Assembly (NCBI RefSeq): GCF_030160075.1
Contig: NZ_BSNQ01000003.1
Span: 986,625 to 1,050,624, forward strand
Reading direction: 5' to 3'
Source of the DNA: Dyella lipolytica
Lineage (GTDB): Bacteria; Pseudomonadota; Gammaproteobacteria; Xanthomonadales; Rhodanobacteraceae
Length of the DNA stretch: 64,000 bases
Each line of letters starts with the position of its first letter. The stretch's first letter is position 1. Under the pieces are notes generated by a model. It was not told where the DNA came from. It made no database searches and worked only from the letters and a program-made list of their open reading frames with translations. Position numbers and translations under genes: made by a program. Positions 11,147-39,812 of the stretch are shown one piece after another.

Positions 11147-11381
11147 GCGGATCCCCCCGCAAGAAACGCAAAAGTCTATCGGGCGACGATCAATATCGCG
11201 TTGCCGACGCGGATTAAGCTACGCCGAGCACAAAGTAGCGTCAATCAAACGCAGACGGGAAACCCGACTTTCCCGACATAGCTGGATGGAACAGCAAGAT
11301 GATGCGACACCCCATTCTCGTGTAACGTATCGTCGTCTGCCCAAGCCGACATCGGGGCATGCTGTCCGTTACGGAGGCAGT

Positions 11382-12284
11382 ATGAGCGATACCATGACTC
11401 CCCTTATCCAGCAGGACTGGAATGCGTTCCATCCCTGGCGCGTTGGAGCGGTTCGGCACCGGGTCTTTGAAGACCCCCTGCTGCAAATGGATTCCCTGCT
11501 AGCGCTGGGCCGACGTCTCGAAGCGGCGGGCCAGCTGCTCGGGATCGATAAGGCATCCACCGCCGGCACGACATTCACGACCAGCAGGGCGGATGTCGAA
11601 GGCCTGGAAAAGATCGGCGAAAACAAAGGCTGGGCGATTCTTCGCTACGTGCAGAACGATCCGATTTATCGCAAGCTCGTCGATGGCGTGCTCGACTCGG
11701 TCCGGCCGCAACTGGAACAGAAAGACCCCGGCATGCACTATCGCGCCGGTTTCATTTTCGTTTCTGCGCAGCATTCGGTCACACCGTTCCATTTCGATGT
11801 GGAACACAACTTCATCTTGCAGATGCACGGGCGCAAACGGCTTTACGTCTGGGATCCGGATGACCTCGTCGTCGCCAGCGAACAGGCCCGCAATCGTTTT
11901 CACTACGACCGCAATCGCGACCTGCTGGTATGGCGCGAAGAATTTCGCGAACGCGCTCACGTGTTCGATCTGGAACCCGGCCAGGGCGCGTACATGCCAT
12001 CGACCAGTCCGCACATGGTCGAAACCGGGCCCGGTCTGTCGATCACCATGAGCTTTACCTATTTCACTCGCGGCACCCGGCGCGATGCGTTGTTGCACAA
12101 GCTGCACTACATGGCGCAACGCGCCCATATCGAGATGCCGGCCGTGGGTCGTCACCCCCACCTCGATGATCTCACCGAGGGTGCCGCTACCGCCGCCGCC
12201 GGCGTTCGGCGGCTAGTGCGGCGGCTGACAGGACACCCGATAAGCCGCACCGATCCGCCTTACGCAGGGGTTATCCAGAGTTAG
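11382..12284 (+). CDS. Second cupin/JmjC-like oxygenase candidate
   Basis: A 300-residue protein. ATG 11382 was chosen because GGAGG lies just upstream; the open frame extends back to 11094 but that part overlaps the divergent neighbour. The metal triad is HFD at His137/Asp139 and His211 in SPHMVET, with GRKRLYVWDP between them, as in JmjC/cupin_8 oxygenases. It shares the fold class with the product of 10115-11146 but not close sequence. The 234-bp gap between the two divergent start codons should hold both promoters. As for its neighbour, it could modify an amino-acid residue of the NRPS product, but the sequence alone cannot show this. Confidence 0.75.
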   Translation: MSDTMTPLIQQDWNAFHPWRVGAVRHRVFEDPLLQMDSLLALGRRLEAAGQLLGIDKASTAGTTFTTSRADVEGLEKIGENKGWAILRYVQNDPIYRKLVDGVLDSVRPQLEQKDPGMHYRAGFIFVSAQHSVTPFHFDVEHNFILQMHGRKRLYVWDPDDLVVASEQARNRFHYDRNRDLLVWREEFRERAHVFDLEPGQGAYMPSTSPHMVETGPGLSITMSFTYFTRGTRRDALLHKLHYMAQRAHIEMPAVGRHPHLDDLTEGAATAAAGVRRLVRRLTGHPISRTDPPYAGVIQS

Positions 12285-12470: not shown

Positions 12471-13424
12471 ATGGCGATACCTCGCGTTCGTCGATCCTGG
12501 CACGCTTTTTTGCGCCGGCGCACGGTCTGTGCGCCCAGCGGAAACGGTGGCGTGCGCACCTTGGGTTTCCGCTTCCTCTCGCCTGCTTCCCGTCATGCGA
12601 TGACGTCGGTGCGCATGCGCCAGGTCATTTTTGTCGCTCTGCTGGCTCCCTTCGCCAAAGGCGTAAACGCCGACGTGCCCCAACGTGCGGAACCGGCACC
12701 GATTCCGATGCTCGGCGTGCACACCCTGCTTGTACAAACCGAGGGGGCTGGTGCAACGCCCGCCGTAACAGCGCCGCTCGACACGCAACCCAGCGGCAGT
12801 GCGCTGCTCGTTCTCAACGGCGGTTACACGAGTAATGCAGACGGCCCGACCGACAACCACGACAACACTTGGTCGCAGTTGGGCCGGAGCGTTGTCTTCG
12901 GTGGTTACGGTGGCCGCTTCAACGTCAAAGCCTACCTCGCGCTACCGGCGCGAGGCGGCAGCGATCACACGATAAGCATCGTCAAGCACGGTAACGAGGC
13001 CGGCGAAATATCGGTGCCAGTTATCGAAATCAGGAACGCGGGCGTGTTGCAGGACGTAGCGCAGAACTATCCATCCCCGAACCTAGCCGGGAAGTACTAC
13101 GACAAGCTGGCGCGCGCCTTGGGACGATCGGGTCATTCGCCCACCGACGGCCCGACGCTGACCAGCGGCGACGTGACGACAACAGGCCCTGCCCTGCTGA
13201 TAGCAGTGTGGTGGGGTGATGCAACGGTTTATCACATGACGGCCGTACCCGATAACGGCTTTGCGGTCATCGACAGTTTTCTCGACCTACCGCCCAACAG
13301 CGGCGTGCAGTGCGCCGTTGCTTATAGGCAGGTCGCCAGCGCAGGGGTTTACCACGTCAGCTGGACCGGAACACCGGCCCAGGGGGCGATTTTGTGGCTG
13401 TTCGCGTTCCAATCCAGGCATTGA
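12471..13424 (+). CDS. Unknown exported protein preceding the PKS gene
   Basis: A 317-residue protein of no family I can name. An exceptionally strong purine-rich site (AGGGGGAGGGG) directly precedes ATG 12471. The likely signal segment VIFVALLAPFAKGVNA only begins near residue 50, so an internal start at ATG 12600 (MTSVRMRQ) would give a normal Sec signal peptide. The mature part is rich in beta-prone segments and Gly/Asn/Thr, with SALLVLNGGY, VVFGGYGGRFNVKAY and a C-terminal GAILWLFAFQ strand, which suggests a single extracellular beta-sandwich domain. It is preceded by an AT-rich stretch (about 12345-12372) and followed 239 bp later by the PKS gene in the same direction. Function unknown. 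Confidence 0.65.
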   Translation: MAIPRVRRSWHAFLRRRTVCAPSGNGGVRTLGFRFLSPASRHAMTSVRMRQVIFVALLAPFAKGVNADVPQRAEPAPIPMLGVHTLLVQTEGAGATPAVTAPLDTQPSGSALLVLNGGYTSNADGPTDNHDNTWSQLGRSVVFGGYGGRFNVKAYLALPARGGSDHTISIVKHGNEAGEISVPVIEIRNAGVLQDVAQNYPSPNLAGKYYDKLARALGRSGHSPTDGPTLTSGDVTTTGPALLIAVWWGDATVYHMTAVPDNGFAVIDSFLDLPPNSGVQCAVAYRQVASAGVYHVSWTGTPAQGAILWLFAFQSRH

Positions 13425-13609
13425 TGTAACTCATGCCGCCCACCCGGACCGGGCGCAACGCCACCGCAACATGCAAGGAACATTGTAAGAGGCCTGGACG
13501 GCCGAACTGCAATTGAAAACCCGGATTGACGGGACGGACGACGACGCTATCAGGGGTGCTCGTTTCCTCCAAAACGGCTAAGGGAAGCCGTGGATTCGTA
13601 CGCGCGAAT

Positions 13610-13631
13610 GTCGCTGCGGTAACGCAGCGGC
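13610..13631 (+). other. GNRA-capped hairpin in the PKS leader
   Basis: A 7-bp perfect stem (13612-13618 with 13623-13629) closed by the tetraloop GTAA, extendable by a wobble pair and a G-C pair, ends about 33 bases before the chosen PKS start. GUAA is a GNRA-type loop and would be stable in the transcript. It may be a leader structure or chance; the upstream 13425-13609 sequence shows nothing else I can name. Confidence 0.35.
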
Positions 13632-13663
13632 ACTCGCCGATTCAATGGAATGGGGAGAGTACG

Positions 13664-16600
13664 TTGAGCGCAAATCACACCTCAACTTCGAGTGCCGAGG
13701 GCATGCGCCTGCTCGAAGTGCTGCCGCATCGGGCGCGTGCACAGTCGCATGGCTGGCACCGTCGCAGCTATGCGCTGGACACCACCCTTGCCTCCGCATT
13801 GGCCGGATTGGCAGCGTCGTCATCGCATGTTCTTTGCGCTGCATTGGGCCTAGTCGAAGCGCATCTCACCGGCGTCGATGCAGTGGCGTTGACGCTGCAG
13901 GATGCCGCAGGCACCAGGCAAGCCACGGTAGAGGTCGCTTCTGAAGGCACGCCTGCAAGCTGGATCGACACGTGTTCCGATGCGCTGATCCACTGCAACG
14001 ACGCTCCGCAGCCGAGCGCATGGTGCGCGCACGACAGAGGCGCCAGACCCGTTAAACCGACACATGCCGCATCGATCTGGCATCTGCACTGCGCTGGCGA
14101 CTCACGACTTGAAGTGGCATTCGACGCGCCGCTCGACGCAGACGACGTCGACCTGCTCGCCCATTGCGTGCTGCGCGCACTAGCAGCGCTGGTAGTCCTG
14201 CCTGGTGAATCGCTCGACGCATTCAGTCTTATCGACGACAACGAGCGACTGCAGTTGCTGGTGGGGTGGAACGCCACTGCGATACCGCGCCGACAAGCGG
14301 ATACGGTGCACGGCCTGTTCCATGCCATCGCTACCGCGCATCCGGACGCCATCGCCGTCAGCATGGGCAGCGCTAGTTTGAGTTATGCCGGGCTCGATCG
14401 GCGCGCGAATACGATCGCAACGCACCTGCGCGAAGCAGGCGTTACGGCTGGCGCGATCGTTGGCGTGATGCAGGCGCGTTCGATCGACACCATCGCCGCG
14501 ATCCTCGGCGTGCTCAAAGCCGGCGCGGCTTACCTGCCGCTTGATGCCACGCACCCCACGGAACGTCTTGCATTTGCGTTGAACGACGCGGGTGCCAGCG
14601 TCGTGCTGGGCCACTTCACGGACTGCATACCGGCGTTGCCGGCATCGGTTGCACGCCTCGCTTACGACGACATGCGGGACACCTCGCATGCCGGCCAGGA
14701 TGAAAGCGCACTACGCGCGATTGACGGCGACGCGCTTGCCTATGTGATGTACACGTCCGGTTCGACCGGAACGCCGAAAGGCGTAGCAATTCGTCATCGT
14801 TCGATCATCCGCCTCGTCTGCGGCGTCGATTACGTCGGACTGAGACCGGAGACGCGCATGCTGCACGCCGCGCCGCTGGGCTTCGACGCATCGACGCTGG
14901 AGATTTGGGGGCCCCTGCTCAACGGCGGCCGCGTCGTCATCCACGACGAACCGGTGCCGACCGGCGCCGGTCTTGCACGCACCATCGCCGACCAGGGCGT
15001 TACCACTGCGTGGCTCACCGCGGCGCTGTTCAACGCCGTGGTCGACGAGAACCCGCTCCAACTCGGCGGTCTGCGCGAATTGTTCACCGGCGGCGAAGCC
15101 TTGTCGGTCGAGCACGTGCGACGCGCGCTCGCTGCGTTGCCCGACACCACGATCAGCAATGGCTATGGTCCCACCGAGTGCACGACGTTTACCTGTACGT
15201 GGCGCATCCCCCGCGACCTCGACGCCGATGCGCTATCGATTCCGATTGGACGTCCGATCGCCGATACCTGCGTGTACGTGCTCAACCCGCGACGCCAACC
15301 CGTGCCCGTCGGCGTGATCGGCGAGTTGTACATCGGCGGCGCTGGTGTGGCGCGCGGTTATCTGCAGCGTCCGGAGCTGGATGCCGAACGCTTCGTCGAC
15401 AATCCATTCGGCGCGCCGGGCGAACGCCTCTACCGCAGCGGCGACCTGGTGCGTTACAGGCCGGACGGCGCCATCGAATTTGTCGGCCGCGTCGACTCGC
15501 AAGTGAAGATCCGCGGTTTCCGCATCGAACTTGGCGAGATCGAGGCAGCATTGCAACGTCACCCCTCGGTGCGCGCTTGCGCCGTACTCGCGCGTGCGGA
15601 TCGACCCGGCGACAAGCGCCTCGTGGCCTACTACGTCGCCGCATCGCCTGTCGGCGCACCCACGTTGCGCGCCCATCTGGCGACGATCCTGCCCGAATTC
15701 ATGGTTCCGGCGAGTTATCTGCAGCTCGATGCGTTACCGGTGACCGCCAACGGCAAACTCGATCGCCGCGCCCTGCCCGCACCGGATCGCAGCCGGCCGG
15801 AGCTCGCCGTGGCATATGCGCCGCCGACCAATCCGTTGGAGCAACAGATTTGCGATGCAATGGCGCACCTGCTCGATCTCGAACAAGTGGGTCGCGACGA
15901 CAACTTCTTTGCGCTGGGCGGCGATTCGCTGCGCGCGCTGCGCCTGATCGAGCAAATCCGCAGCCAGGGCCTCGGCCTTATCGCTGCAGTCACACTGTTC
16001 CGCGACCCGACGCCCGCCACGCTGGCGCGCGCACTTAGCGGCGACGAACGACCGTCGATCGAGCCGAGCCGCATCGCACGCAGTCGCCACGATCACGACG
16101 AACCGATCGCGATCGTGGCGATGTCAGGACGCTTTCCAGGCGCTGCCGACGTCGAGGGGTTCTGGCGCAATCTGTGTGAAGGACGCGAGTCGATTACACG
16201 CTTCGAACTCAGCGACCTCGATCCCAGCATTCCCGCCGCGTTGCGCAACGATCCCGCTTACGTGCCTGCGCGTGGCGTGATCGACGATGTCGAACTGTTC
16301 GACGCCGCGTTCTTCGGTATCAGTCCGCGCGAGGCGGAGCTGATGGATCCGCAACAGCGGCTGTTCCTGGAGCTGTGCTGGGAATGCCTGGAGCGCGCCG
16401 GTCATGCAGCCGATGCACAGAGCAGCCCGGTCGGCGTGTTCGGCGGCATGTACAACGCCAGCTACTTCCAGCATCACGTGAGTGCACATCCCGATCGGGT
16501 GGACATGATCGGCGCATTCCAAGTGATGCTGGACAACGAGAAGGATTACATCGCGCCGCGCGTCGCACACAAACTCAACCTCACCGGACCCACGGTGAGC

Positions 16601-19600
16601 GTGCACACCGCCTGCTCCACGTCGCTGGTCGCGATCTGCCAGGCGATGCTGAGCCTGCGCGGCGGCCAATGCGACATGGCGTTGGCAGGTGGCGTGGCAG
16701 TGACCTGCCCTCCACGCAGCGGCTATCTGTTTCAGGACGGCGCGATGTTGTCGCCGGACGGGCACACGCGGACGTTCGACGCCGATGCCAAGGGCACGGT
16801 GTTCAGCGACGGCGCTGCGGTGGTGCTGCTCAAACGACTGTCCGATGCGCAGGCCGACGGCAATACGATCTACGCGTTGATCCGCGGCGGCGCCGTCAAC
16901 AACGACGGCGGCGTCAGGGCGAACTTCATGTCGCCGACCAGCGCAGGACAGGCTGCCGTGATTGCGATGGCGCATGCCGATGCGGGAGTCGATGCGCGCA
17001 GCATCTCCTACGTGGAAGCGCACGGCACGGCGACGCCGATCGGCGATCCGATCGAACTCGAAGGTCTTACCCACGCCTTCCGTCGCAGCACCCACGATGT
17101 GGGTTTCTGCCGCATCGGTTCGCTGAAAAGCAATGTCGGCCATCTGGTGATCGCCGCCGGCGCCGCGGGCGTCATCAAGACGGCGTTGTCGCTTGCGGAA
17201 CGCCAGCTGCCACCGAGCCTGCATTTCCGCGCGCCCAATCCGGTCATCGACTTCGCCAGTTCGCCGTTCGTGGTCAACGACCGCCTGTGCGAATGGCAGG
17301 CCGAGGGGACGCGGCGCGCAGGCGTCAGTTCGTTCGGCGTAGGCGGCACCAACGCACACATCGTGATGGAAGAAGCGCCGGCGCCACCGGCATCGGAGCC
17401 CGCTGTCGGGCCGCAAACGCTGATTCTTTCGGCACGCACGGCAAGTGCGCTTGGCGCCATGGCCACGCGTCTTGCCGATCATCTTGGCGCGCAGCCGGAA
17501 CTCAATCTTGCCGATGTCGTCTGGACGCTGGCGATCGGGCGAAAGACGTTTGCGCATCGCCTTGCCGTGGTCGCCGATGACGCGCGTACTGCCATGACGC
17601 AACTCACCAATGCGCAGACAACCGCCGCCATCGCGCGCAGCCGGCCGGCGCAAGCCAGCGACGTGGTATTCCTGTTCCCCGGCCAGGGCGCTCAATATGC
17701 CGGCATGGGGCGCGACCTCTACGCGAGCGAACCCGCGTTCCGCGCCGCATTCGACGCCTGCGCCGACTTGCTGCGTGCGGAGTTGGGTTTCGACCTGCGC
17801 GAGTTGGTGTTTACCGGCGATGCCGAAGCTTTGCTGCCCACAGCCGTGATGCAGCCGGCCACCTTTGCGATCGAATACGCGCTGGCGCAACTGTGGATGA
17901 GCTTCGGGCTCGTGCCCGCGGCGATGATCGGACACAGCGTCGGTGAATTCGTTGCAGCCACGCTGGCCGGCGTGTTTGAGCTGCGCGACGCATTGCACCT
18001 CGTTGCACGTCGCGGTGCGCTGATGCAGCAATTGCCTGGAGGCAGCATGCTATCAGTGCGTCTGCCGCTGGCAACCTTGCAGACGCGCTTGCCGGACGAC
18101 GTGCAGCTGGCCGCGGAAAACGCGCCCAATGCCTGTGTCGTCGCCGGTCCACATGAAGCGATCGCACGCTTCCAGGCGGCGCTGGAAGCGGAAGACGTCG
18201 CGTGTCGCGCATTGAAAACCTCGCATGCATTCCACTCGGCGATGATGGAGCCGGCGCTCGCGCCGTTCCGCGCCGAGGTTGCCAACGTGGCGCGTGCCGA
18301 GCCGAAGCTTCCGCTGGTATCGACAGCAACCGGTGACTGGCTGACCGCCGAGCAAGCGGTTTCCACCGACTACTGGGTGGACCACCTGCGCCGGCCGGTG
18401 CGATTTGCGGTCGCGCTCGGGCACGCACTTCCTGCGCCGTCGCGCGTACTGCTCGAAGTGGGGCCACGCGGCAGCCTCACTGCACTGGCACGTCAGCAGC
18501 TCGGTACGCAGCACAGTCACGTCGTCGCCGTGTCGTCGCTCGCCGATGCACCGGCATCGGAGTGTTCCACGTTTGCGCTCGCCGTCGGTCAGCTGTGGTG
18601 CCACGGCGTCGCGATCGATCCGGCGCGCTTCGATCGGCGCCAACGTCGCCGGCGCGTGCGACTGCCGACGTATCCATTCGAACGCCAGCGCTGCTGGGTC
18701 GAGGCCGCGCCTGCCGGCGCCGCCCTGCCCGCTCCCGCTGAAATAACTGAGACGGTGGCGGCTGCCACGTGCACCGAGGAGACAAGTATGTCCATTGCCC
18801 AAGCACCCCGCGCCGATCGGCACACGCGCCTGATCGCCCAGCTCAAGAGCATCTTCGAGGACGTGGCAGGCGTCGACCTGGTCGATGCCGACGTGCATGC
18901 CAACTTTATCGAGCTCGGCCTCGACAGCCTGATGCTGACCCAGCTTGCGCTGCACCTGTCCAAGGTGTTTCCGGTCGCGATCACGTTCCGCCAATTGATG
19001 GTCGACGATGCCAGCCTCGACCGGCTCGCCGCCATGCTCGATGCGCACATGCCGCCCGAGGCGCCACCCGTGGCCGCACCTGCGCCGGTAGTGGCGGCGT
19101 CCGTTGCGCCGTTGTCAAACTCGCCGTTGCCAACGGCACCGGCAGCTGTCATCGGGAATGTCGTCATGGGGGACGCTGTCATGGGAAACGATTATGTGCG
19201 GCAGGTGATCGAGCAGCAGATGCAACTGATGTCGCAGCAATTGACATTGCTCGCCGGCGGAGTCGCTGCGCCGCAGCCGCAGCCGCAGCCCCTGCCCTCA
19301 CCGGCCATGGCTGTCGCTGCGCCGACGCCAGCCAAACCTGCCGAAGCGGTTAGCGACGAAGAAGCTGCGCTCGCCCATACCCGTTACGACGTCAAGAAGG
19401 CATTCGGTGCGATTGCGCGCATCGACACGGCCGCCCGGTTCGAACTCTCGCCGCACCAGCAAGCCAGGCTCGACAGTTTCATTCAGCGCTACGTCGCCCG
19501 CACACGCAAATCGAAGGACTACACGCAAGCAGAGCGTCCGCACATGGCCGATCCGCGCGTGGTCAACGGCTTCCGTCCGCTGCTCAAGGAGATCACCTAT

Positions 19601-20932
19601 CAGCTAGTGGTGGGGCGTTCCAAAGGTGCGCATCTGTGGGATCTGGATGGCAACGAATACGTCGACGCACTGAATGGTTTCGGCATGAGTCTGTTCGGCT
19701 GGCAGCCGGACTTTGTGCTCGAAGCGGTGCGGCGCCAGCTTGACCTTGGCTACGAGATCGGCCCGCAGCATCCACTTTCCGGAGAGGTGGCGCGGTTGGT
19801 CTGCGAACTGACGGGACACGATCGCGCGGCGTTATGCAACACCGGCTCGGAAGCCGTGCTCGGCGCCTTGCGCATTGCGCGCACCGTCACTGGACGCAGC
19901 ACTGTGGTGCTGTTCACCGGCGCCTATCACGGCATCATCGATGAAATGCTGGTTCGCGGCACCAAGAAGCTGCGTGCTGTGCCCGCCGCGCCGGGCATTT
20001 TGCGCAACACGGCGGAGAACGTGTTGGTGCTCGACTACGGCACGCCGGAGTCGCTGGAGATCATCCGCTCCCGCGCGAACGAACTGGCCGCCGTGTTGAT
20101 CGAGCCGGTGCAAAGTCGTCGCCCGGATTTCCAGCCCGTGGATTTCCTCAAGGACGTGCGCAAGATCACCACCGAGTCCGGTGCGCTATGCATCTTCGAC
20201 GAGATCGTTACAGGCTTCCGCACGCATCCAGGCGGCACGCAGGCGTTGTTCGGCATCAAGGCCGACGTTGCCACGTACGGCAAGGTGGTCGGCGGCGGTT
20301 ATCCGATCGGCGTGATCGCAGGTAAGCGCGAGTACATGGACGCGCTCGATGGCGGCGCCTGGCAGTACGGCGACGACTCGGTACCGACGGTAGGCGTCAC
20401 CTACTTCGCCGGTACCTTCGTACGCCACCCGCTCGCGCTCGCGGCCGCCAAAGCGTCGCTTGAGTACATGAAAGCACAAGGCCCCACGCTGCAGGAGCGA
20501 CTCAGCGCACGCACTTCAGCGCTGGCCGACGAACTCAATGCATTCTGCCGCGAGGCAGGCGCGCCGATCGCGATCAAGCAATTCGGTTCCGTGTGGAAAA
20601 CCCAGTTCCTCGAGGATCACCCGCTGCAAGATCTGCTGTTCGCGATGATCCGCAGCCGCGGCGTGCACATTCTCGACAACTTCCCCTGCTTCATGACGAC
20701 GGCGCACAGCGAAGCCGACGTGCAACGCATCGCACAGGCTTACAAGGAATCGGTGAGCGAACTGCTGGAAAGCGAATTCATGCCGCGCCACGCCGCCACT
20801 GTGCGCACCGTGATGGAAGCGAGCCACCCGCCCGTGCCAGGCGCGCGGCTGGGACGCGAACCGGATGGACGCCCGTGCTGGTTCGTGCCGAACCCGGAGC
20901 AACCCGGTAAATATATGAAGGTGAGCGCATGA
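13664..20932 (+). CDS. Hybrid NRPS/PKS synthetase: A-PCP-KS-AT-ACP-aminotransferase
   Basis: About 2422 residues from TTG 13664, which has GGGGAG six bases upstream (an earlier TTG at 13526 lacks one). Domains in order: an unassigned N-terminal region of about 220 residues; adenylation about 225-705 (YTSGSTGTPKG near 362, NGKLDRRAL near 695); PCP with GGDSL near 750; KS about 812-1240 with the active Cys in TACSTS near 983, EAHGTA and KSNVGH; AT about 1335-1620 with GHSVGE and AFHS, the malonyl-type signature; ACP with LGLDSL near 1751; and a class-III PLP aminotransferase about 1930-2390 with the Lys in YGKVVGGGYPIG. There is no KR, DH or ER. The inferred chemistry is loading of an amino acid, one malonate extension, then transamination of the beta-ketone. 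By-eye A-domain code positions read D A L W F G G T F K, close to valine-type codes. Confidence 0.93.
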   Translation: MSANHTSTSSAEGMRLLEVLPHRARAQSHGWHRRSYALDTTLASALAGLAASSSHVLCAALGLVEAHLTGVDAVALTLQDAAGTRQATVEVASEGTPASWIDTCSDALIHCNDAPQPSAWCAHDRGARPVKPTHAASIWHLHCAGDSRLEVAFDAPLDADDVDLLAHCVLRALAALVVLPGESLDAFSLIDDNERLQLLVGWNATAIPRRQADTVHGLFHAIATAHPDAIAVSMGSASLSYAGLDRRANTIATHLREAGVTAGAIVGVMQARSIDTIAAILGVLKAGAAYLPLDATHPTERLAFALNDAGASVVLGHFTDCIPALPASVARLAYDDMRDTSHAGQDESALRAIDGDALAYVMYTSGSTGTPKGVAIRHRSIIRLVCGVDYVGLRPETRMLHAAPLGFDASTLEIWGPLLNGGRVVIHDEPVPTGAGLARTIADQGVTTAWLTAALFNAVVDENPLQLGGLRELFTGGEALSVEHVRRALAALPDTTISNGYGPTECTTFTCTWRIPRDLDADALSIPIGRPIADTCVYVLNPRRQPVPVGVIGELYIGGAGVARGYLQRPELDAERFVDNPFGAPGERLYRSGDLVRYRPDGAIEFVGRVDSQVKIRGFRIELGEIEAALQRHPSVRACAVLARADRPGDKRLVAYYVAASPVGAPTLRAHLATILPEFMVPASYLQLDALPVTANGKLDRRALPAPDRSRPELAVAYAPPTNPLEQQICDAMAHLLDLEQVGRDDNFFALGGDSLRALRLIEQIRSQGLGLIAAVTLFRDPTPATLARALSGDERPSIEPSRIARSRHDHDEPIAIVAMSGRFPGAADVEGFWRNLCEGRESITRFELSDLDPSIPAALRNDPAYVPARGVIDDVELFDAAFFGISPREAELMDPQQRLFLELCWECLERAGHAADAQSSPVGVFGGMYNASYFQHHVSAHPDRVDMIGAFQVMLDNEKDYIAPRVAHKLNLTGPTVSVHTACSTSLVAICQAMLSLRGGQCDMALAGGVAVTCPPRSGYLFQDGAMLSPDGHTRTFDADAKGTVFSDGAAVVLLKRLSDAQADGNTIYALIRGGAVNNDGGVRANFMSPTSAGQAAVIAMAHADAGVDARSISYVEAHGTATPIGDPIELEGLTHAFRRSTHDVGFCRIGSLKSNVGHLVIAAGAAGVIKTALSLAERQLPPSLHFRAPNPVIDFASSPFVVNDRLCEWQAEGTRRAGVSSFGVGGTNAHIVMEEAPAPPASEPAVGPQTLILSARTASALGAMATRLADHLGAQPELNLADVVWTLAIGRKTFAHRLAVVADDARTAMTQLTNAQTTAAIARSRPAQASDVVFLFPGQGAQYAGMGRDLYASEPAFRAAFDACADLLRAELGFDLRELVFTGDAEALLPTAVMQPATFAIEYALAQLWMSFGLVPAAMIGHSVGEFVAATLAGVFELRDALHLVARRGALMQQLPGGSMLSVRLPLATLQTRLPDDVQLAAENAPNACVVAGPHEAIARFQAALEAEDVACRALKTSHAFHSAMMEPALAPFRAEVANVARAEPKLPLVSTATGDWLTAEQAVSTDYWVDHLRRPVRFAVALGHALPAPSRVLLEVGPRGSLTALARQQLGTQHSHVVAVSSLADAPASECSTFALAVGQLWCHGVAIDPARFDRRQRRRRVRLPTYPFERQRCWVEAAPAGAALPAPAEITETVAAATCTEETSMSIAQAPRADRHTRLIAQLKSIFEDVAGVDLVDADVHANFIELGLDSLMLTQLALHLSKVFPVAITFRQLMVDDASLDRLAAMLDAHMPPEAPPVAAPAPVVAASVAPLSNSPLPTAPAAVIGNVVMGDAVMGNDYVRQVIEQQMQLMSQQLTLLAGGVAAPQPQPQPLPSPAMAVAAPTPAKPAEAVSDEEAALAHTRYDVKKAFGAIARIDTAARFELSPHQQARLDSFIQRYVARTRKSKDYTQAERPHMADPRVVNGFRPLLKEITYQLVVGRSKGAHLWDLDGNEYVDALNGFGMSLFGWQPDFVLEAVRRQLDLGYEIGPQHPLSGEVARLVCELTGHDRAALCNTGSEAVLGALRIARTVTGRSTVVLFTGAYHGIIDEMLVRGTKKLRAVPAAPGILRNTAENVLVLDYGTPESLEIIRSRANELAAVLIEPVQSRRPDFQPVDFLKDVRKITTESGALCIFDEIVTGFRTHPGGTQALFGIKADVATYGKVVGGGYPIGVIAGKREYMDALDGGAWQYGDDSVPTVGVTYFAGTFVRHPLALAAAKASLEYMKAQGPTLQERLSARTSALADELNAFCREAGAPIAIKQFGSVWKTQFLEDHPLQDLLFAMIRSRGVHILDNFPCFMTTAHSEADVQRIAQAYKESVSELLESEFMPRHAATVRTVMEASHPPVPGARLGREPDGRPCWFVPNPEQPGKYMKVSA

Positions 20933-23900
20933 GTACGGACACATCACAGCGGCCGGTGCTGACGGCCGTCGATTACGATCCCTTTGCCACCGCTGCGCTG
21001 ACCCGCGTAGTGCCCAGCACCGAGCCGCAGCGCGAGATCTGGTTGGCGGCCAGCATCAGTCCCGAGGCATCGCTGGCCTATAACGAATCGGTATCGTTGC
21101 GTTTCAACGGCATGCTGAACAGCGATGCCCTGCGGGCCGCCGTGCAGGAGCTGGTCGATCGCCACGATGCATTGCGCGCAAGCTTCGGCCCGGAGGGTGA
21201 CACGTTCTGCGTCAACGAACAGTTGACGCTCGAATTGCCTTTGCGCGATCTCTCCGCGGACGATGCCGCAGCCCGCACCAGCGCGCTCGCCAACTGTTTG
21301 CGTGAAGCAGTGGAAACACCGTTCGTACTCGAGCAGGCTCCCCTGTTTCGAGCCGAGCTATTGCGTCTGGCCAGCGACGATCACGTGCTTGTACTCACCG
21401 CGCACCATCTGGTCTGCGACGGCTGGTCATGGTGGGTGCTGGTGCACGAACTGTCTTCGCTGTACGCCGCGCGCACCGGCGAATCGGTGCGACCGTTGCC
21501 GACGCCCGAATCGTTCGCCGACTATGCACTGGCCCAAGCCAGCCAGGGCGATCAGCGCGCCTTCGCCACGGATGAAGCGTATTGGCTGTCCCGCTACGCC
21601 GACAGTATCCCGGTGCTGGACTTGCCGACCGATCGCAGTCGTCCGGCGCAACGCACATTCGCTTCCAAGCGCGAGGACCATGTTTTCGACACGGCGCTGC
21701 TAGATGCCATCAAAGGCATGGGCGCGCGACGCGGCGTCAGCCTGTTCGCCACGCTGTTGGGTAGCTTCGCCACGCTCATGACCCGGCTGTCCGGTCAGCA
21801 TGAAGCGGTGATCGGCATTCCCACGGCGGCACAAGCGAGCACCGGTGACGGACAGCTGGTCGGCCATTGCGTGAGCTTGCTGCCTTTGCGCTGCGCAGCG
21901 GATCCCGCCGCGCCATTCGCGCAGTTGCTCAAAGATACCCAGGCCACGCTGCTGGAAGCGCTGGAGCACCAGCACTACACCTTCGGCAGTCTGCTGAAAC
22001 GACTGGGCGTCCGACGCGAGCCGAGCCGCCTGCCGCTGGTCAGCGTGCTGTTCAACATCGACCAGGCGCTGGATCACGAAGCAGCGGCATTTCAGGGCGC
22101 ACACCTTACGTTCGCGAGCAATCCGCGCCACTACGAGAACTTCGAACTGTCGGTCAACGCAGTGCAGGAGCACGGCCAGCTTCGATTGGAATGCCAGTAC
22201 AACAGCGACCTGTTCGATGCGGCCACGGTACGCCGCTGGTTGCAGGCCTACGAAACCCTGCTGCGCGCTGCCGTCGCACAAACGGACGCCGCACTCGGCG
22301 AACTGCCCTTGGTCGACGAAGCCGGCCGACGTGAACTGGCAGGGTGGCAACCTGCCCCCACGCCGTTCGACGTAGATCGTCGCGCGCACGAGTTCTTCGA
22401 AGCGCAATGCGATCGCGCACCCGAGCGCACCGCCGTCCGCGCCGGCGACAGCACGCTCACTTATGCGCAACTGGACGAACGCGCGAATCGCATCGCGCGC
22501 TTGTTGCGCAGCCGCGGCGTACGCAGCGGCGCGCTGGTCGGCATTGCGCTGGAGCGCGGTATCGACATGCTCGCCGCGTTGCTTGGCGTACTCAAGACGG
22601 GTGCCGGCTATGTGCCGCTCGACCCGGCTTTTCCGGAAGAACGGCTCGCTTTCATGGTGAGCGACGCGAGTCTGGCGGCCTTGGTCACTGAGCAAGCGCA
22701 CGCCGCCCGCTTCGATCTGCGCGGACGCCCGGTGCTGGCGCTCGACCAGCTCGTCGCGGAACTGGCAGCGCAACCGGCGACGCGCCTTGCCACCGACACC
22801 GATGCCGTCGCGCCCGACGCGGTGGCTTACGTGATCTACACATCCGGCTCGACCGGGCGCCCCAAGGGCGTGCAGGTACCGCATCGAGCGACCGCGAACT
22901 TTCTCACCACGACGCAGCGCGAGCCAGGCATGCGTGCCGACGACCGCTTGGTCGCGGTGACGACGCTTTCGTTCGACATCGCCTTCATGGAATTGATGCT
23001 GCCGCTGGCCGTAGGCGCCGAAGTGATCGTGGCGAGTCGGGAACAAGTGCGCGATGGCGTGCTACTCCGCAAGCTGGTCGAAACCAGCGGCGCCACCTAC
23101 TTGCAGGCCACGCCTGCCGGGTGGCGGCTGTTGCTCGATGCGGGCTGGCAGGGACATCCGGGTTTTCGCGCCGTCAGCGGCGGCGAACCTTTGTCGCTGG
23201 CGTTGGCCGAGGCATTGCTCGCGCGTTGCGGTGAAGTCTGGAACGGTTATGGCCCCACCGAGGCGACGGTGTACGCGACGTTCTGGCGGGTCGAGAACCC
23301 GCGCGCCGGCATCGTGATCGGCCGCCCGGTGGCGAACACCACCGTGTGGGTGCTCGATCCGCAGCGTCAGCTGTGCCCGGCGGGTGTGCCTGGCGAATTG
23401 TGGATCGGCGGCGCCGGCGTTGCGCTCGGATATCTCAATCGACCGGAGTTGAGCGCCGAACGCTTCGTCCGCGATCCCTATGCCGATGCGTCACACGCAC
23501 GGTTATATCGCACCGGCGACCGTGGCCGCTGGCTCGCTAACGGCACGCTGGAACACCAGGGACGTCTGGACTTCCAGGTGAAGTTGCGCGGCTTCCGCAT
23601 CGAACCCGGCGAAATCGAAGCGAACCTGGCCGCAAAACCGGAAGTAGCACACGCCGTGGTCATCGTGCGCGAAGACCGGCCCGGCGACGCGCGCCTGGTG
23701 GCCTATCTGGTCGCGCGCGCCGGCATGACGGTGGACGAGACAGGCTTGCGCGTGCACTTGCGCCAGGTGCTGCCGGAATACATGGTGCCGCAGCATTTCA
23801 TCGTGCTCGATGCCATGCCCTTGCTGCCCAACGGCAAGATCGGCCGCGCGCGGCTGCCCGCGCCCGCCGATGCGTTGCCACAGCAAGACGCTGCCGCAGT

Positions 23901-26900
23901 GCACACCGCGCCACGCGACGAACTGGAACGTCAGGTAAGCGACGCGATGGCAGTGGTGCTCGGCGCCGCCGGCCTAGGAGTCGACGACAACTTCTTCGAT
24001 CGTGGCGGTCATTCGCTGCTCGCGGCCCAGCTCACCGCGCGGCTCAATCGCGAGCTTAGCCTCAACCTGCCCTTGGCCGCGCTGTTCGAAGCGCCGACCG
24101 TCGCACAACTCGCGGAACGCATTCGTGGCGTGCAAGCCACCGACACACAGCGTCCACTGCCGAAGATTGCGCGCCTGCCCGATCGTCAGCGAGCACCCTT
24201 GTCCATCTTGCAACAGCGCATGCTTTACCTCGAGCAAATGCGCGGTGAGCGTACCGCCTACAACACTCCCTCGGCACATCGCTTGCGCGGCCCGATGAAC
24301 GAGCAGTTGTTCGAGCGTGCCTTGCAGGACGTGGTGCGGCGTCAGGCGGTGTTGCGCACATCCATCGAAACCGAAGGCGACGAACCGCAACAGCGCATCC
24401 ACGATACCGTCGACGTGACGCTGCTGCCGGTCGAAGATCTTTCCGCCATCCCGGCCGAAACACGCGAAGCCGAACTCAAACGCCGGCTCGAACAGTTGAT
24501 CGACGAGCCGTTCGACTTGTCGCGCGCTCCCCTCTTTCGTACGCGGCTGTTCCGGCTGGGTGCGGAAGAGCATGTGTTTTTCTTTGTCACCCATCACATC
24601 ATCTGGGACGGCTGGTCGTTCGACCTGCTGTATCAGGAGATGTCGGACACCTACGCCGCACTGCTGAATGGCGAGACCGCGCCGCGACCCGAGCTGGACG
24701 TGCAATACGGCGACTTCGCGGCATGGCATCGCGCGTGGCTGCGTGACGACGAGTTGAACCGGCGTCTAGTGTTCTGGAAACAGCATCTGCAGGGCGAGAT
24801 CGAGCCGCTGGAACTGCCGACGGATCATCCGCGCCCGCTGCGCATGTCCGGCAACGGTGCCACCGAATGGCTGCAACTACCCAACGCCACCGCCGATGCC
24901 ATCCATGCGCTCGGCAAGCAGGCCGAGGCGACGCCGTTCATGGTGCTGCTTGCGATCTACTTCGTGTTCCTGCATCGCCAGACCGGGCAGCACGACATCA
25001 TCGTCGGCACGCCGGTGCGCGGCCGCGAAGTGCCCGAGCTCGAGCCGGTGATGGGTTATTTCGTCAACGCCTTGCCGTTGCGCATGAAGGTGGATCCCAC
25101 CCTGTCCTTTGTGAATTTCCTGCGCCAGTTGCGTGCCAGCGTGGTCGCTGCCTTTTCCTATCCCGAAGTGCCGTTCGACCAACTGGTGCAGGAACTGCAC
25201 CTACCGCGCGACGCCAGCCGGCCGCCGTTGTACCAGGCGATGTTTTCCTTCCAGGACGTACGCGGTCGCAACCGCACCTGGGGCCAGTTGCGCCACGAAC
25301 GCCTGCCGGTGTTCCAGCATGGCGCAGCGGACGATATCGGCGTGTGGTTCGTCGAACACGGTCTGGGGATGTCTGGCGGCCTCACCTACAACACCGACAT
25401 TTTCGATGCGTCGACCGCGGCGCGCCTGCGCGAGCGCTACCTCGCTCTGCTGTCGGCGGCGCTGCAGGATCCGCAACAGCCCGTCGCGCAATTGGCGCTG
25501 CTACCAGCGGCCGAGCTTGAGCTGCTCAACCGCTGGAACGCCACCGAGGTTGCCGGCATCGCCGACGGTTGCGTGCATGCCCTGGTCGAGGCGCAAACGC
25601 GACGCACGCCGGACCGCGTGGCGCTGCGCTGCGACGAACAAACCCTCAGCTACGCCCAACTCGACGCCTACGCCAACCGCATCGCTCATGCGCTGCGCGC
25701 ACAGGGCATCGGTCGAGGTGCGCTGGTCGGCATCGCGCTCGACCGCGGCTTCGGCCTGGTCGCAGCCGTACTCGGTGCGCTGAAAGCCGGCGCCGGGTAT
25801 GTGCCGCTCGATCCGGCCTTCCCACGCGACCGGCTCACCTTGATGGTCGAGGACGCAGACATCGGCGTGCTGATCACCGAACACCGTTTCGCCGACCGTT
25901 TCGTCATCGGTCAGCGTGCCGTGCTGTGGCTGGACGAATCCGCTTCGCTCGATGCGCTGCCTGCCTCACCGCTCGCGCCGGATACGCAGAGCGCGACGCC
26001 GACATCGGTGGCCTACGTGATCTACACCTCCGGTTCGACCGGACGTCCGAAAGGCGTGGCGATTCCGCACCGCGCCGTGCGCAACTTCCTCGCGAGCATG
26101 TGCGAACGACCGGGATTGCGCGAGGACGACCGGCTGGTCTCGGTAACCACCTTGTCGTTCGACATCGCGGTGCTCGAGCTGTTCGGGCCGCTCGGCATCG
26201 GTGCCGAAGTCGTGCTGGCACGGCGCGAGGAAGTGATGGATGGCGAATCGCTGATGGGGCTGCTCGCATCGAGCAAGGCCACCGTGATGCAGGCGACACC
26301 GGCCACCTGGCGTGTGCTGCTGAAGGCGGGTTGGCAAGGCTCGCCCGGCTTCCGGGCGCTGTGCGGCGGCGAGGCGCTGGCGCTGGACCTGGCCGTCGAA
26401 CTTTGCGCACGCTGCGCCGAGGTATGGAACATGTATGGCCCCACCGAGACGACGGTGTGGTCGACCTGCTGGCAGGTGGAACATCCGGAACGCGGTCTTT
26501 CGATCGGCACGCCGATCGCCAACACCACGGTGTGGATCCTCGATGCGCAAGGCCAACGTTGCCCGATCGGCGTGCCCGGCGAGATCTGGATCGGCGGCGA
26601 CGGCGTCGCGCTCGGTTACCTTCATCGGCCCGAACTCACGGCCGAGCGTTTCGTTGACGATCCGTTTGCGTCGACGCCGGGTGCGCGGATGTATCGCACC
26701 GGTGACCGCGGCCGCTGGCTTGCCAACGGCACGCTCGAACATCTCGGCCGCCTGGACTTCCAGATCAAGCTGCGCGGTTTCCGCATCGAACCCAGCGAGA
26801 TCGAAATGGTGGCACGCGTGGAGCCTGCGGTGAGCGATTGCGTCGCCGTGACTTGGGATGTCACGCCGCAGGATCGACGTCTTGTCCTGTATGCCGTGTC

Positions 26901-27396
26901 CATGGAATCCGAAGACACCCTGTTCCCGCGCTTGCGTGCCCAGCTGTCGGCGCAATTGCCGGGTTACATGCAGCCGCAGCACCTGGTGCTTCTGCCTGCG
27001 CTGCCGCAAACGCCCAACGGTAAAGTCGATCGTAAGGCGTTGCCGCCGCCGGTGGTCAAGATAGCGCCCGCTACCGACGCACGTTCCCGCGGTCCGGTGC
27101 CGCCGCCCATCGACGATCCGCGACAGCGCTATCTGGCCGGCATCTGGTGCGAGCTCATCGGTGTGCAGGACGTGCGTCCGGCGGACAACTTCTTCGATGC
27201 CGGTGGTCATTCGCTCTTGGCGATCGACATGGCAGCGCGCGTGCGTCGGGAAACCGGTGTGCGTCTGAACCTGCTCAGCATCGCCACCGGTACGCTCGCC
27301 ACGCTTGCCAGCGAATTGCCGGAGAGCATCGCTGACAAGCCTGCGCGACCGACTACGTTGGGCGGCCGTCTGCGCCGTTTGTTCGAACCACGCTGA
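20929..27396 (+). CDS. Dimodular NRPS: C-A-PCP-C-A-PCP, no thioesterase
   Basis: A 2155-residue protein whose ATG overlaps the stop of the PKS gene (ATGA), so the two are translationally coupled. C1 about 25-440 has the HHLVCDG active motif near 158; A1 about 465-980 (YTSGSTGRPKG near 637); PCP1 with GGHSLLA near 1022; C2 about 1085-1520 with HHIIWDG near 1222; A2 about 1545-2045; PCP2 with GGHSLLA near 2092. The protein stops about 60 residues after the last PCP, with no thioesterase, reductase or terminal C domain. C1 should form the amide on the aminated polyketide unit. By-eye specificity positions read D I M Q V G G V Y K for A1 (not assignable) and D I L Q L G M V W K for A2 (resembling glycine-type codes). 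The two modules share long near-identical stretches, which indicates module duplication. Confidence 0.93.
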   Translation: MSTDTSQRPVLTAVDYDPFATAALTRVVPSTEPQREIWLAASISPEASLAYNESVSLRFNGMLNSDALRAAVQELVDRHDALRASFGPEGDTFCVNEQLTLELPLRDLSADDAAARTSALANCLREAVETPFVLEQAPLFRAELLRLASDDHVLVLTAHHLVCDGWSWWVLVHELSSLYAARTGESVRPLPTPESFADYALAQASQGDQRAFATDEAYWLSRYADSIPVLDLPTDRSRPAQRTFASKREDHVFDTALLDAIKGMGARRGVSLFATLLGSFATLMTRLSGQHEAVIGIPTAAQASTGDGQLVGHCVSLLPLRCAADPAAPFAQLLKDTQATLLEALEHQHYTFGSLLKRLGVRREPSRLPLVSVLFNIDQALDHEAAAFQGAHLTFASNPRHYENFELSVNAVQEHGQLRLECQYNSDLFDAATVRRWLQAYETLLRAAVAQTDAALGELPLVDEAGRRELAGWQPAPTPFDVDRRAHEFFEAQCDRAPERTAVRAGDSTLTYAQLDERANRIARLLRSRGVRSGALVGIALERGIDMLAALLGVLKTGAGYVPLDPAFPEERLAFMVSDASLAALVTEQAHAARFDLRGRPVLALDQLVAELAAQPATRLATDTDAVAPDAVAYVIYTSGSTGRPKGVQVPHRATANFLTTTQREPGMRADDRLVAVTTLSFDIAFMELMLPLAVGAEVIVASREQVRDGVLLRKLVETSGATYLQATPAGWRLLLDAGWQGHPGFRAVSGGEPLSLALAEALLARCGEVWNGYGPTEATVYATFWRVENPRAGIVIGRPVANTTVWVLDPQRQLCPAGVPGELWIGGAGVALGYLNRPELSAERFVRDPYADASHARLYRTGDRGRWLANGTLEHQGRLDFQVKLRGFRIEPGEIEANLAAKPEVAHAVVIVREDRPGDARLVAYLVARAGMTVDETGLRVHLRQVLPEYMVPQHFIVLDAMPLLPNGKIGRARLPAPADALPQQDAAAVHTAPRDELERQVSDAMAVVLGAAGLGVDDNFFDRGGHSLLAAQLTARLNRELSLNLPLAALFEAPTVAQLAERIRGVQATDTQRPLPKIARLPDRQRAPLSILQQRMLYLEQMRGERTAYNTPSAHRLRGPMNEQLFERALQDVVRRQAVLRTSIETEGDEPQQRIHDTVDVTLLPVEDLSAIPAETREAELKRRLEQLIDEPFDLSRAPLFRTRLFRLGAEEHVFFFVTHHIIWDGWSFDLLYQEMSDTYAALLNGETAPRPELDVQYGDFAAWHRAWLRDDELNRRLVFWKQHLQGEIEPLELPTDHPRPLRMSGNGATEWLQLPNATADAIHALGKQAEATPFMVLLAIYFVFLHRQTGQHDIIVGTPVRGREVPELEPVMGYFVNALPLRMKVDPTLSFVNFLRQLRASVVAAFSYPEVPFDQLVQELHLPRDASRPPLYQAMFSFQDVRGRNRTWGQLRHERLPVFQHGAADDIGVWFVEHGLGMSGGLTYNTDIFDASTAARLRERYLALLSAALQDPQQPVAQLALLPAAELELLNRWNATEVAGIADGCVHALVEAQTRRTPDRVALRCDEQTLSYAQLDAYANRIAHALRAQGIGRGALVGIALDRGFGLVAAVLGALKAGAGYVPLDPAFPRDRLTLMVEDADIGVLITEHRFADRFVIGQRAVLWLDESASLDALPASPLAPDTQSATPTSVAYVIYTSGSTGRPKGVAIPHRAVRNFLASMCERPGLREDDRLVSVTTLSFDIAVLELFGPLGIGAEVVLARREEVMDGESLMGLLASSKATVMQATPATWRVLLKAGWQGSPGFRALCGGEALALDLAVELCARCAEVWNMYGPTETTVWSTCWQVEHPERGLSIGTPIANTTVWILDAQGQRCPIGVPGEIWIGGDGVALGYLHRPELTAERFVDDPFASTPGARMYRTGDRGRWLANGTLEHLGRLDFQIKLRGFRIEPSEIEMVARVEPAVSDCVAVTWDVTPQDRRLVLYAVSMESEDTLFPRLRAQLSAQLPGYMQPQHLVLLPALPQTPNGKVDRKALPPPVVKIAPATDARSRGPVPPPIDDPRQRYLAGIWCELIGVQDVRPADNFFDAGGHSLLAIDMAARVRRETGVRLNLLSIATGTLATLASELPESIADKPARPTTLGGRLRRLFEPR

Positions 27397-27677: not shown

Positions 27678-28829
27678 ATGGCAGGCCTTCAGCATATGAT
27701 GACCACAGTGGCGCAACTCGCGTTCTGGATCAGCGCGCTGCTGCTGCTGCATGCGTTTGCCGGATACCCGGCATGCATGGTGTGGATCGCACGCCGGCGC
27801 CCGCGCCCGGTGCGCAAGCAGCCGGTTACACCAACGGTGACGGTGGTGATCGCCATCTATGACGGCGCTGCGCATATTCGCGACAAGTTGGCGAGTCTGC
27901 GCGCACTGGATTATCCCGCCGATCGCATCGAGATCGTCATTGCCTGCGACGGGTGTCGCGACACGAGCGCCGAATTGTGCCGGTGGCTGGACGATCCAGG
28001 CGTGCGCGTGCTCGAGTTCGACGAACGTCGCGGCAAGGCGGCCTGCCTGAATGACGCTATCGCCGTGGCCGAAGGCGAGATCTTGCTGATGACCGATGTG
28101 CGACAGCGACTGGATGTGCACGCATTGCGCGAACTCGTGGCCAACTTCGCCGACCCCGAGGTGGGCGCGGTCAGCGGCGAGCTTCGCTTCGAGGATCCGC
28201 AAACCGGCTTCGCGCGCGGGGTGGACACGTATTGGCGCTACGAAACACTGATCCGCCACGCCGAAAGCCGTTCCGGCTCCACCATCGGCGTAAGCGGTGC
28301 TCTTTATGCGATGCGCCGTGCTTTATTCCTGCCGTTGCCGCTGGGCACCGTGCTCGACGACGTCCTGATTCCGATGCGTGTCGCGAAAGCTGGGAAGCGC
28401 GTAATTTTCGAACCGCTGGCAGTGGCGTGGGATCGCCTTTCGCTGCATCCGGCCGAGGAGCGCCGGCGCAAGATCCGCACGCTCGCCGGCAATTTTCAGT
28501 TGATGCAGCTGGCGCCGTGGCTGCTCGCGCCCTGGCGCAATCCGCTGTGGTTCCGTTTCGTCAGTCACAAGGCATTGCGTCTGCTTGCACCGTGGCTGTT
28601 GGCGCTATTTATGCTTGCCATCATCGTGCTGGCGTCGCGTCACGCGTTTTATGCGTTCGCGCTGTGCGCGTTGTTCGGTGGCGCCTTGCTTGTTGCGCTG
28701 ACGCGCATGTTGCGCATGGGTGAACGCTGGCTGCCGGTGCGTGCTGCCGTGGCGTTCTTTTATCTCAATCTGTTTGCCGCACAAGCGCTCGTTGCCTTCG
28801 CCCGTAACCGGAGATTGCATCTGTGGTAA
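27678..28829 (+). CDS. Family 2 glycosyltransferase, membrane-bound
   Basis: A 383-residue protein with an N-terminal hydrophobic helix (about residues 10-35), a GT-A domain starting TVVIAIYDGAAHI, the IACDG segment, a LLMTDV segment at the place of the usual DxD motif, and KAGKRVIFEP. Two or three hydrophobic helices (about 290-370) follow. This is the topology of processive-type or EPS-associated GT2 enzymes that work at the inner membrane with a polyprenyl-linked acceptor. ATG 27678 begins just after the inverted-repeat element; ATG 27696 is an alternative and neither has a strong ribosome-binding site. It is the first gene of a nine-gene overlapping EPS operon. The sugar donor is unknown. 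Confidence 0.87.
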   Translation: MAGLQHMMTTVAQLAFWISALLLLHAFAGYPACMVWIARRRPRPVRKQPVTPTVTVVIAIYDGAAHIRDKLASLRALDYPADRIEIVIACDGCRDTSAELCRWLDDPGVRVLEFDERRGKAACLNDAIAVAEGEILLMTDVRQRLDVHALRELVANFADPEVGAVSGELRFEDPQTGFARGVDTYWRYETLIRHAESRSGSTIGVSGALYAMRRALFLPLPLGTVLDDVLIPMRVAKAGKRVIFEPLAVAWDRLSLHPAEERRRKIRTLAGNFQLMQLAPWLLAPWRNPLWFRFVSHKALRLLAPWLLALFMLAIIVLASRHAFYAFALCALFGGALLVALTRMLRMGERWLPVRAAVAFFYLNLFAAQALVAFARNRRLHLW

Positions 28830-39784: not shown

Positions 39785-39812
39785 AAAGGTCTCCATTCCT
39801 TTGAACTGTTAT

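Follow-up and report, generated by a model that had tools for sequence, protein, structure and literature searches.

The hybrid NRPS/PKS assembly line found in the window (the whole stretch of 64,000 nucleotides of Dyella lipolytica DNA that was analyzed) lies within an exopolysaccharide (EPS) locus, and the co-occurrence and physical linkage of NRPS/PKS and EPS genes span many genera and extend beyond the family. An EPS-dedicated, EPS-modifying assembly line with off-loading in trans is the best explanation and, in our judgement, a moderately probable one. It draws on the conserved linkage, the near-obligate partnership of NRPS/PKS with the hydrolase abh1, the conserved Cys and Asp-His of this protein, and the joint absence of the entire module from an EPS locus that is complete in other respects; we infer that sugar is the attachment point for the peptide. 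A literature search covering few of the subscription journals returned no account of this system.

Two plus-strand genes encode the assembly line. ORF1 (13526..20932; start at TTG 13526 or later, the alignment to relatives beginning around residue 52) displays the order A-PCP-KS-AT-ACP-aminotransferase behind a degenerate N-terminus, with Pfam matches to AMP-binding (residues 267-613, C-terminal part 671-744), PP-binding, KS (859-1234), AT (1381-1660), PP-binding (1772-1838) and class-III aminotransferase (2026-2383). The KS Cys (TACSTS) and the AT Ser (GHSVGE, with HAFH) are intact, as are, by sequence, the carrier-protein Ser and the aminotransferase Lys (YGKVVGGG). ORF2 (20929..27396) is arranged as C-A-PCP-C-A-PCP plus a basic C-terminal tail; the A-domain codes are DALWFGGTFK in ORF1 and DIMQVGGVYK, then DILQLGMVWK, in ORF2. 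With A, PCP, KS, AT, ACP and C domains and intact active-site motifs, the two proteins form a hybrid NRPS/PKS. A cis release domain is usual, not universal, in such systems and ORF2 has none: as the preliminary description had claimed, Pfam detects no thioesterase (TE), reductase or terminal C domain after the last PCP, where only a short tail follows. The basic tail, overlooked in the preliminary description, comprises the final 18 residues and has a mean net charge of +4.1, the 30 residues preceding it averaging -1.4 (59 relatives in both cases).

ORF1 and ORF2 sit within an XrtA-type Wzx/Wzy EPS locus reaching about 50.1 kb, the priming glycosylphosphotransferase of which (XrtA-type EpsB_2; 5422..6822, plus strand) scores 560 bits against TIGR03013 (cutoff 393). 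The coordinates first given for this gene, for the phosphopantetheinyl transferase (4461-5219) and for a nine-gene run (27678-38349) hold, but the latter, initially presented as a glycosyltransferase operon, does not consist of nine glycosyltransferases. All on the plus strand, it encodes a GT2 glycosyltransferase (27678..28829, PF00535), a Wzy-type polymerase (Wzy_C; 28823..30169, PF04932 1e-16), a Wzx-type flippase (30088..31716, PF13440/PF01943), a PaaK-like AMP-forming ligase (31713..33071, NCBIfam DVU_1553/FlxY-like, below cutoff), three GT4 glycosyltransferases (32999..34213, PF00534; 34204..35385, PF13692/PF00534; 35822..37186, PF13692), a NodB-like polysaccharide deacetylase (35382..36023; PF01522 6e-32; TIGR04243 NodB 1e-29, below cutoff) and a highly conserved EPS-core protein (37078..38349, no family above cutoff), used here as the EPS marker. 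The locus then goes on along the minus strand to 50.1 kb, a part missed by the preliminary description, with a GalE-type epimerase (42745..43854, TIGR01179 above cutoff), two hydrolases, an outer-membrane barrel of PEP-CTERM-locus type (45467..46765; TIGR03016 below cutoff, PF10082), an XrtA-type tyrosine autokinase (46912..47700; TIGR03018 6e-49, below cutoff), an XrtA-type Wzz chain-length determinant (47697..49241; TIGR03007 380 bits, cutoff 279) and an XrtA-type Wza export protein (49277..50074; TIGR03027 202 bits, cutoff 180). Priming transferase, Wzx, Wzy, Wzz-type and Wza-type proteins in a single locus identify a Wzx/Wzy-dependent pathway, and TIGR03013, TIGR03007 and TIGR03027, all above cutoff, place it with the XrtA/PEP-CTERM EPS loci. 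A search of the D. lipolytica genome for an exosortase (PF09721) found none, so the EPS locus is of XrtA type yet not an exosortase system; a link to exosortase was discarded, the sole match in the searched NRPS2-bearing genomes being a weak, stop-interrupted one in G004. No gene was recognized as a glycan acyltransferase of any known family, a point against the EPS-modifying explanation.

Among 198 genomes of the family, NRPS/PKS is present in 83 and the EPS marker in 78; 67 have both, 16 NRPS/PKS alone, 11 the marker alone and 104 neither, all co-occurrence counts taking related genomes as independent. In 61 of the 67 co-occurring pairs both lie on the same contig, 13-40 kb apart, and an EPS gene stands within 10 kb of NRPS/PKS in 53 of 65 named relatives (each represented by 19 kb of DNA or more). 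The preliminary description had proposed a linked pathway, and comparison of gene order in relatives bears this out strongly together with the co-occurrence: the NRPS/PKS-plus-EPS block is conserved, and 12 genomes from several genera share an identical order around NRPS/PKS. NRPS/PKS clusters free of EPS genes, which would speak against linkage, were looked for and none was found. Even where the EPS marker protein is absent, NRPS/PKS still adjoins other EPS genes in nine of ten genomes, and in the tenth its neighbors are glycosyltransferases and, as a separate protein, an A-PCP-thioesterase.

The two minus-strand hydrolases are located 16 kb from NRPS/PKS, on the opposite strand (43.8-45.4 kb). 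The first, abh1 (43764..44534, the conserved core of ORF 43734-44819), has an alpha/beta fold with an invariant Cys and Asp-His; its partner abh2 (44567..45355) is a pseudo-hydrolase, the nucleophile being replaced by Arg. Both are relatives, not members, of the XrtA hydrolase families, abh1 scoring 52.8 bits against TIGR03100 (hydrolase 1, cutoff 168) and abh2 60.6 bits against TIGR03101 (hydrolase 2, cutoff 203). These low scores and the distance from NRPS/PKS count against the EPS-modifying explanation. A sequence search of abh1 against solved structures gave nothing specific, and its fold matches include the thioesterase DcsB. abh1 occurs in 79 of the 83 NRPS/PKS genomes versus 3 of the 115 without NRPS/PKS (112 have neither) and, at the order level, in 50 of 50 NRPS/PKS genomes; among 80 named loci, about 30 have abh2-abh1 immediately behind the terminal PCP. 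The pair is retained where the assembly line lacks the aminotransferase (G029, G320, G360 and G408). This co-occurrence and gene order strongly support the earlier suggestion that a separate enzyme releases the product. The two hydrolases, not noticed in the preliminary description, are strong candidates for the absent release function, abh1 as a putative trans off-loading or acyl-transfer enzyme; the pair probably stands in for the missing release domain and may attach the peptide to the polysaccharide, while abh1 could also merely hydrolyze the thioester.

Further genes track with NRPS/PKS when 14 NRPS-positive loci are compared with 9 NRPS-negative EPS loci. A GMC-family oxidoreductase (2712..4457, plus, PF05199) and a cupin/JmjC-like protein adjoining the NRPS (11094..12284, plus, PF13621 1e-9), a possible hydroxylase of the bound peptide, are each found in 11 of 14 and 0 of 9, respectively; the 4'-phosphopantetheinyl transferase for carrier proteins (4461..5219, plus, PF01648 4e-15) in 7 of 14 and 0 of 9. 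Another cupin/JmjC-like protein, also a possible hydroxylase, is encoded on the minus strand (10115..11146, PF13621 1e-29). A probably secreted beta-sandwich protein of no known family (12471..13424, plus; AF2 pLDDT 87) is accompanied by NRPS/PKS in 60 of the 62 genomes having it, and a fold search with its AF2 model gave no solved-fold match at E of 0.001 or less. Two candidates were rejected as NRPS partners: the PaaK-like ligase, because it belongs to the EPS core and is present in 8 of 9 NRPS-negative loci (13 of 14 NRPS-positive ones), and the EPS-core protein at 37078-38349, present in 9 of 9, with mean identities of 78% in NRPS-positive and 70% in NRPS-negative loci. Sequence searches of the latter and of the protein at 6844 against solved structures gave nothing specific.

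EPS-core genes occur without NRPS in G219 and G019, therefore the peptide is not essential for EPS. In G219 the EPS locus is otherwise complete; it has no NRPS, the abh pair is absent from its usual slot, and the phosphopantetheinyl transferase, cupin, GMC oxidoreductase and 12471-13424 protein are missing too. In place of the abh pair, G062 has an A-PCP-thioesterase protein. Free ACPs and acyl ligases occur in NRPS-less XrtA loci.

From domain order and A-domain codes, ORF1 would load a Val-like amino acid, add one malonyl unit and transaminate at the beta-keto position, which would leave a beta,gamma-diamino acid on the carrier; ORF2 would add one residue (code unassigned) and then a Gly-like one, with the cupin and GMC oxidases probably tailoring the chain. 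abh1, aided by the catalytically dead abh2, would pick up the finished chain in trans, with the basic tail of ORF2 possibly serving as a guide. The acyl group would then pass from the Cys of abh1 to a sugar in the lipid-linked repeat unit, at an amine or hydroxyl perhaps exposed by the NodB-like deacetylase, prior to Wzx flipping and Wzy polymerization. The full proposal, which we find evenly balanced, is that the NRPS/PKS product is a covalent EPS substituent, not a free metabolite, and that the Cys-hydrolase/pseudo-hydrolase pair carries it from the final PCP over to the glycan; by extension, the related "exosortase A-associated hydrolases 1 and 2" would acylate glycans in cooperation with the ACPs and acyl ligases found in XrtA loci.

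The product might instead be a small molecule secreted in free form, for example as a signal or to act on biofilms, which abh1 would hydrolyze off the last PCP; co-regulation for growth on surfaces would then account for the position of the genes beside those for EPS. The NRPS-free EPS loci of G219 and G019, the ordinary A-PCP-TE protein of G062, and the fact that alpha/beta-hydrolases, DcsB included, are often thioesterases agree with this; we consider it unlikely, since the position inside EPS loci is conserved across many genera, apart from the EPS export genes, nothing seen in the module encodes a dedicated exporter, a receptor or resistance, and a Cys rather than Ser nucleophile would suggest transfer over hydrolysis. 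Alternatively, the peptide could cap, prime or anchor the polysaccharide (for example as a terminal group, as an outer-membrane bridge or by joining it to the secreted protein at 12471-13424) instead of decorating each repeat; the near exclusivity of that protein to NRPS/PKS genomes fits, per-repeat decoration is equally compatible with domain and gene content, and we regard a cap or anchor as improbable. Type II thioesterases are common companions of NRPS/PKS, and abh1/abh2, acting in trans, might likewise be editing proteins with release by another route; this is similarly doubtful, given that no other release candidate tracks with NRPS, that the pair is an active/inactive couple and that G062, without it, has a TE-bearing protein. 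Chance clustering of two unrelated loci, raised earlier and compatible with the EPS loci of G219 and G019, is contradicted by the co-occurrence and linkage counts in many genera, also outside the family, and can be dismissed as extremely improbable.

If the EPS-modifying reading is correct, many genera from soil and water (Dyella, Luteibacter, Rhodanobacter, Frateuria, Dokdonella, Lysobacter, Luteimonas and Pseudoxanthomonas) can have slime polysaccharide that bears peptide-polyketide groups, built by assembly lines of the kind that makes antibiotics. It would also account for orphan NRPS/PKS clusters whose free product may never turn up, give relatives of XrtA-associated hydrolases a first testable role, and offer a trans enzyme pair usable for joining peptides to sugars.

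Parts of the system resemble known ones. Transfer of the SyrC, CmaE and CouN7 type relies on Cys alpha/beta-hydrolase chemistry, and abh1, with its alpha/beta-hydrolase fold and Cys nucleophile, is comparable to them in fold and in its putative role. SyrC and CmaE are trans shuttles for carrier-bound acyl groups; with CouN7, the recipient of such a group is a free acceptor (PMC8748450, PMC7966384). These enzymes each handle a single aminoacyl or pyrrolyl unit within small-molecule pathways, whereas abh1 would take over a chain of several units, has a pseudo-enzyme as its partner and belongs to an EPS locus. Nod factor N-acylation (NodB, NodA, NodE/NodF) likewise brings a NodB-like deacetylase together with an acyl chain held on a carrier, within one glycan pathway; however, the deacetylase here is below the NodB cutoff (TIGR04243 103 bits, cutoff 240) and present also without NRPS, the acyl chain comes from NRPS/PKS, and no NodA-like gene was recognized. 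In hybrids of the mycosubtilin/iturin and microcystin type, an ACP followed by an integrated class-III aminotransferase yields a beta-amino acyl chain; ORF1 has the same succession, but the present line has an amino-acid starter, no release domain and a place inside an EPS locus. With XrtA/PEP-CTERM EPS loci, which also comprise an acyl-CoA ligase and an ACP, the present locus has in common the families of its priming transferase, chain-length protein and export protein, all above curated cutoffs, and it contains relatives of hydrolases 1 and 2. It differs in that the D. lipolytica genome has no exosortase, and related XrtA loci (G019, G058) carry stand-alone ligases and ACPs where NRPS/PKS stands here.

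The two synthetase genes form a hybrid NRPS/PKS, ORF1 (13526-20932, +) carrying the Pfam domains A-PCP-KS-AT-ACP-aminotransferase and ORF2 (20929-27396, +) the domains C-A-PCP-C-A-PCP; sequence inspection indicated that the active-site motifs of both are intact. No Pfam family matched the N-terminal 260 residues of ORF1, the end of which resembles by eye a condensation domain's C-terminal portion. The aminotransferase region shares 73-84% identity with its counterpart in eight relatives. As stated in the preliminary description, ORF2 has no release domain, only a short tail following the last PCP. Among 59 relatives the last 18 residues of ORF2 are strongly basic (mean net charge +4.1 vs -1.4 in the preceding 30), with a strict RLRxx[FL]G-type motif at the end in 21 and a looser form in 35.

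The genes for a GMC oxidoreductase (2712-4457, +) and a PPTase (4461-5219, +) lie upstream of the EPS priming transferase (5422-6822, +). Past the assembly line, 27678-38349 encodes in this order GT2, Wzy, Wzx, a PaaK-like ligase, two GT4, a NodB-like deacetylase, a further GT4 and a conserved protein (37078-38349, +), and the minus strand, up to 50.1 kb, GalE, two hydrolases, an OM barrel, a tyrosine autokinase, Wzz and Wza. The priming transferase, Wzz and Wza scored above XrtA/PEP-CTERM family cutoffs, and no exosortase was detected in the window's genome.

In 12 genomes from several genera, ORF2 relatives (49-66% identity) sit in an unchanged gene order; a conserved NRPS/PKS-plus-EPS block was what the preliminary description had named as support for a linked pathway. 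A named-genome scan with the aminotransferase region returned 197 relatives, 80 of which were retained, from Rhodanobacter, Dyella, Luteibacter, Frateuria, Dokdonella, Lysobacter, Luteimonas, Pseudoxanthomonas and some betaproteobacterial MAGs. An EPS gene lies within 10 kb of the assembly line in 53 of the 65 loci having at least 19 kb of sequence; among the others, several have more distant EPS genes (L158, L169, L182, which lies in genome G161, and L172, at ~30-50 kb). Across 198 family genomes, related ones being counted as independent, the NRPS/PKS and the 37078-38349 gene, our EPS-core marker, were both present in 67, the NRPS/PKS alone in 16, the marker alone in 11 and neither in 104; 61 of the 67 pairs share one contig at 13-40 kb spacing. 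An NRPS/PKS cluster free of EPS genes had been named as evidence against linkage; nine of ten NRPS-only genomes inspected have other EPS genes adjoining the assembly line, and in the tenth, G062, its neighbors are two GT2 genes and one for a sulfotransferase.

Comparison of 14 NRPS-containing with 9 NRPS-lacking loci, several of the latter having shorter flanks that weaken the absences, separated genes tracking the NRPS (abh1, abh2, GMC, PPTase, a cupin at 11094-12284, +, and the 12471-13424 protein, +) from an EPS core (glycosyltransferases, Wzx, Wzy, deacetylase, PaaK-like ligase and the 37078 protein). In genome G219 the EPS locus keeps its order but lacks the NRPS/PKS, PPTase, cupin, GMC and 12471 protein, and the abh pair is missing from its usual slot, since GalE is directly followed by the OM barrel; a weak abh-like pair (28-30%) ~22 kb past the EPS genes may be unrelated. 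Free ACPs and acyl ligases are found in NRPS-less XrtA-type loci. The 12471 product, a beta-sandwich protein of no known family, is probably secreted; 60 of the 62 genomes having it also have the NRPS/PKS, and a fold search with its confident AF2 model gave no match at E<=0.001.

The candidate release enzymes are abh1 (43764-44534, -), a Cys alpha/beta-hydrolase, and its pseudo-hydrolase partner abh2 (44567-45355, -), in which Arg replaces the nucleophile. They are related to XrtA 'hydrolase 1' and 'hydrolase 2', respectively, yet fall below those families' cutoffs. The abh1 model has an alpha/beta-hydrolase fold (AF2 pLDDT 85.7). An alignment of 14 sequences showed no variation at the Cys nucleophile and Asp-His of abh1, and their conservation in a larger set was 98%. 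abh1 was found in 79 of 83 NRPS/PKS genomes vs 3 of 115 others; one of these three (G029) carries an assembly line that lacks a close aminotransferase match, and the other two (G169, G221) are assemblies that are fragmented or incomplete. At the order level it is present in 50 of 50 NRPS/PKS genomes, and in three abh1-positive genomes with no aminotransferase match (G320, G360, G408) abh2-abh1 come after assembly lines that lack an aminotransferase. The pair directly follows ORF2 in about 30 of the 80 named loci, and abh1/abh2 HMMs had no match in five NRPS-less EPS loci. G062 lacks the pair, and a separate A-PCP-thioesterase protein (L194:9249-11825) adjoins its NRPS/PKS and may be a non-orthologous substitute for release.

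Our best reading is that abh1 would off-load the chain in trans, with a sugar in the lipid-linked repeat as acceptor; both this acceptor and transfer rather than hydrolysis are our inference. There is precedent in SyrC and CmaE, which carry aminoacyl groups from one carrier to another, and in CouN7, by which an acyl group bound to a carrier is handed to a free substrate (PMC8748450, PMC7966384). The main rival is that the assembly line makes a free secreted peptide. Although all genome counts take related genomes as independent, the pattern recurs in many genera and at the order level. A literature search found no report of such a system, papers beyond its coverage being possible.

The A-domain codes, read with PheA numbering that was checked against 1AMU, are DALWFGGTFK, DIMQVGGVYK and DILQLGMVWK, of which we take the first to be Val-like and the last Gly-like and leave the second unassigned. 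Given one malonyl extension, no KR and the aminotransferase, the chain is predicted from sequence to begin with a 3,4-diamino-5-methylhexanoyl unit. Among relatives the code of the first A domain can be Val-like, Pro-like (DVQFIAHV) or of another kind, most later ones being Gly-like or Ser-like; such strain-to-strain variation would suit a variable surface decoration without proving it.

Wzx (30088-31716, +) is an ortholog of Frateuria and Rhodanobacter Wzx (about 52-65% identity); several same-genus relatives have close to the locus a Wzx-like gene that is only 27-32% identical to it. The NRPS behaves in parallel, with 84-87% identity to other genera against about 73% within its own, which suggests that the locus was exchanged as one unit. 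Between the EPS operons, 38426-42606 (-; GC lower, about 0.55) encodes a PG-binding-domain protein, an LprI-domain protein and a VirD4-like T4SS coupling protein; none of these genes is present at the same locus in 14 relatives, so the segment looks like an insert, possibly with a T4SS effector/immunity pair. Downstream of the priming transferase, 6844-9288 (+) encodes a probably secreted 814-residue protein with no Pfam match, alginate lyase/heparinase-like by eye, which is shared by few relatives and by the NRPS-less G219. A small DnaJ-domain protein (9355-10035, -) is flanked by EPS and NRPS genes, and a B_lectin-domain protein (53025-53960, -) lies in a low-GC stretch (0.52) immediately past the EPS locus.
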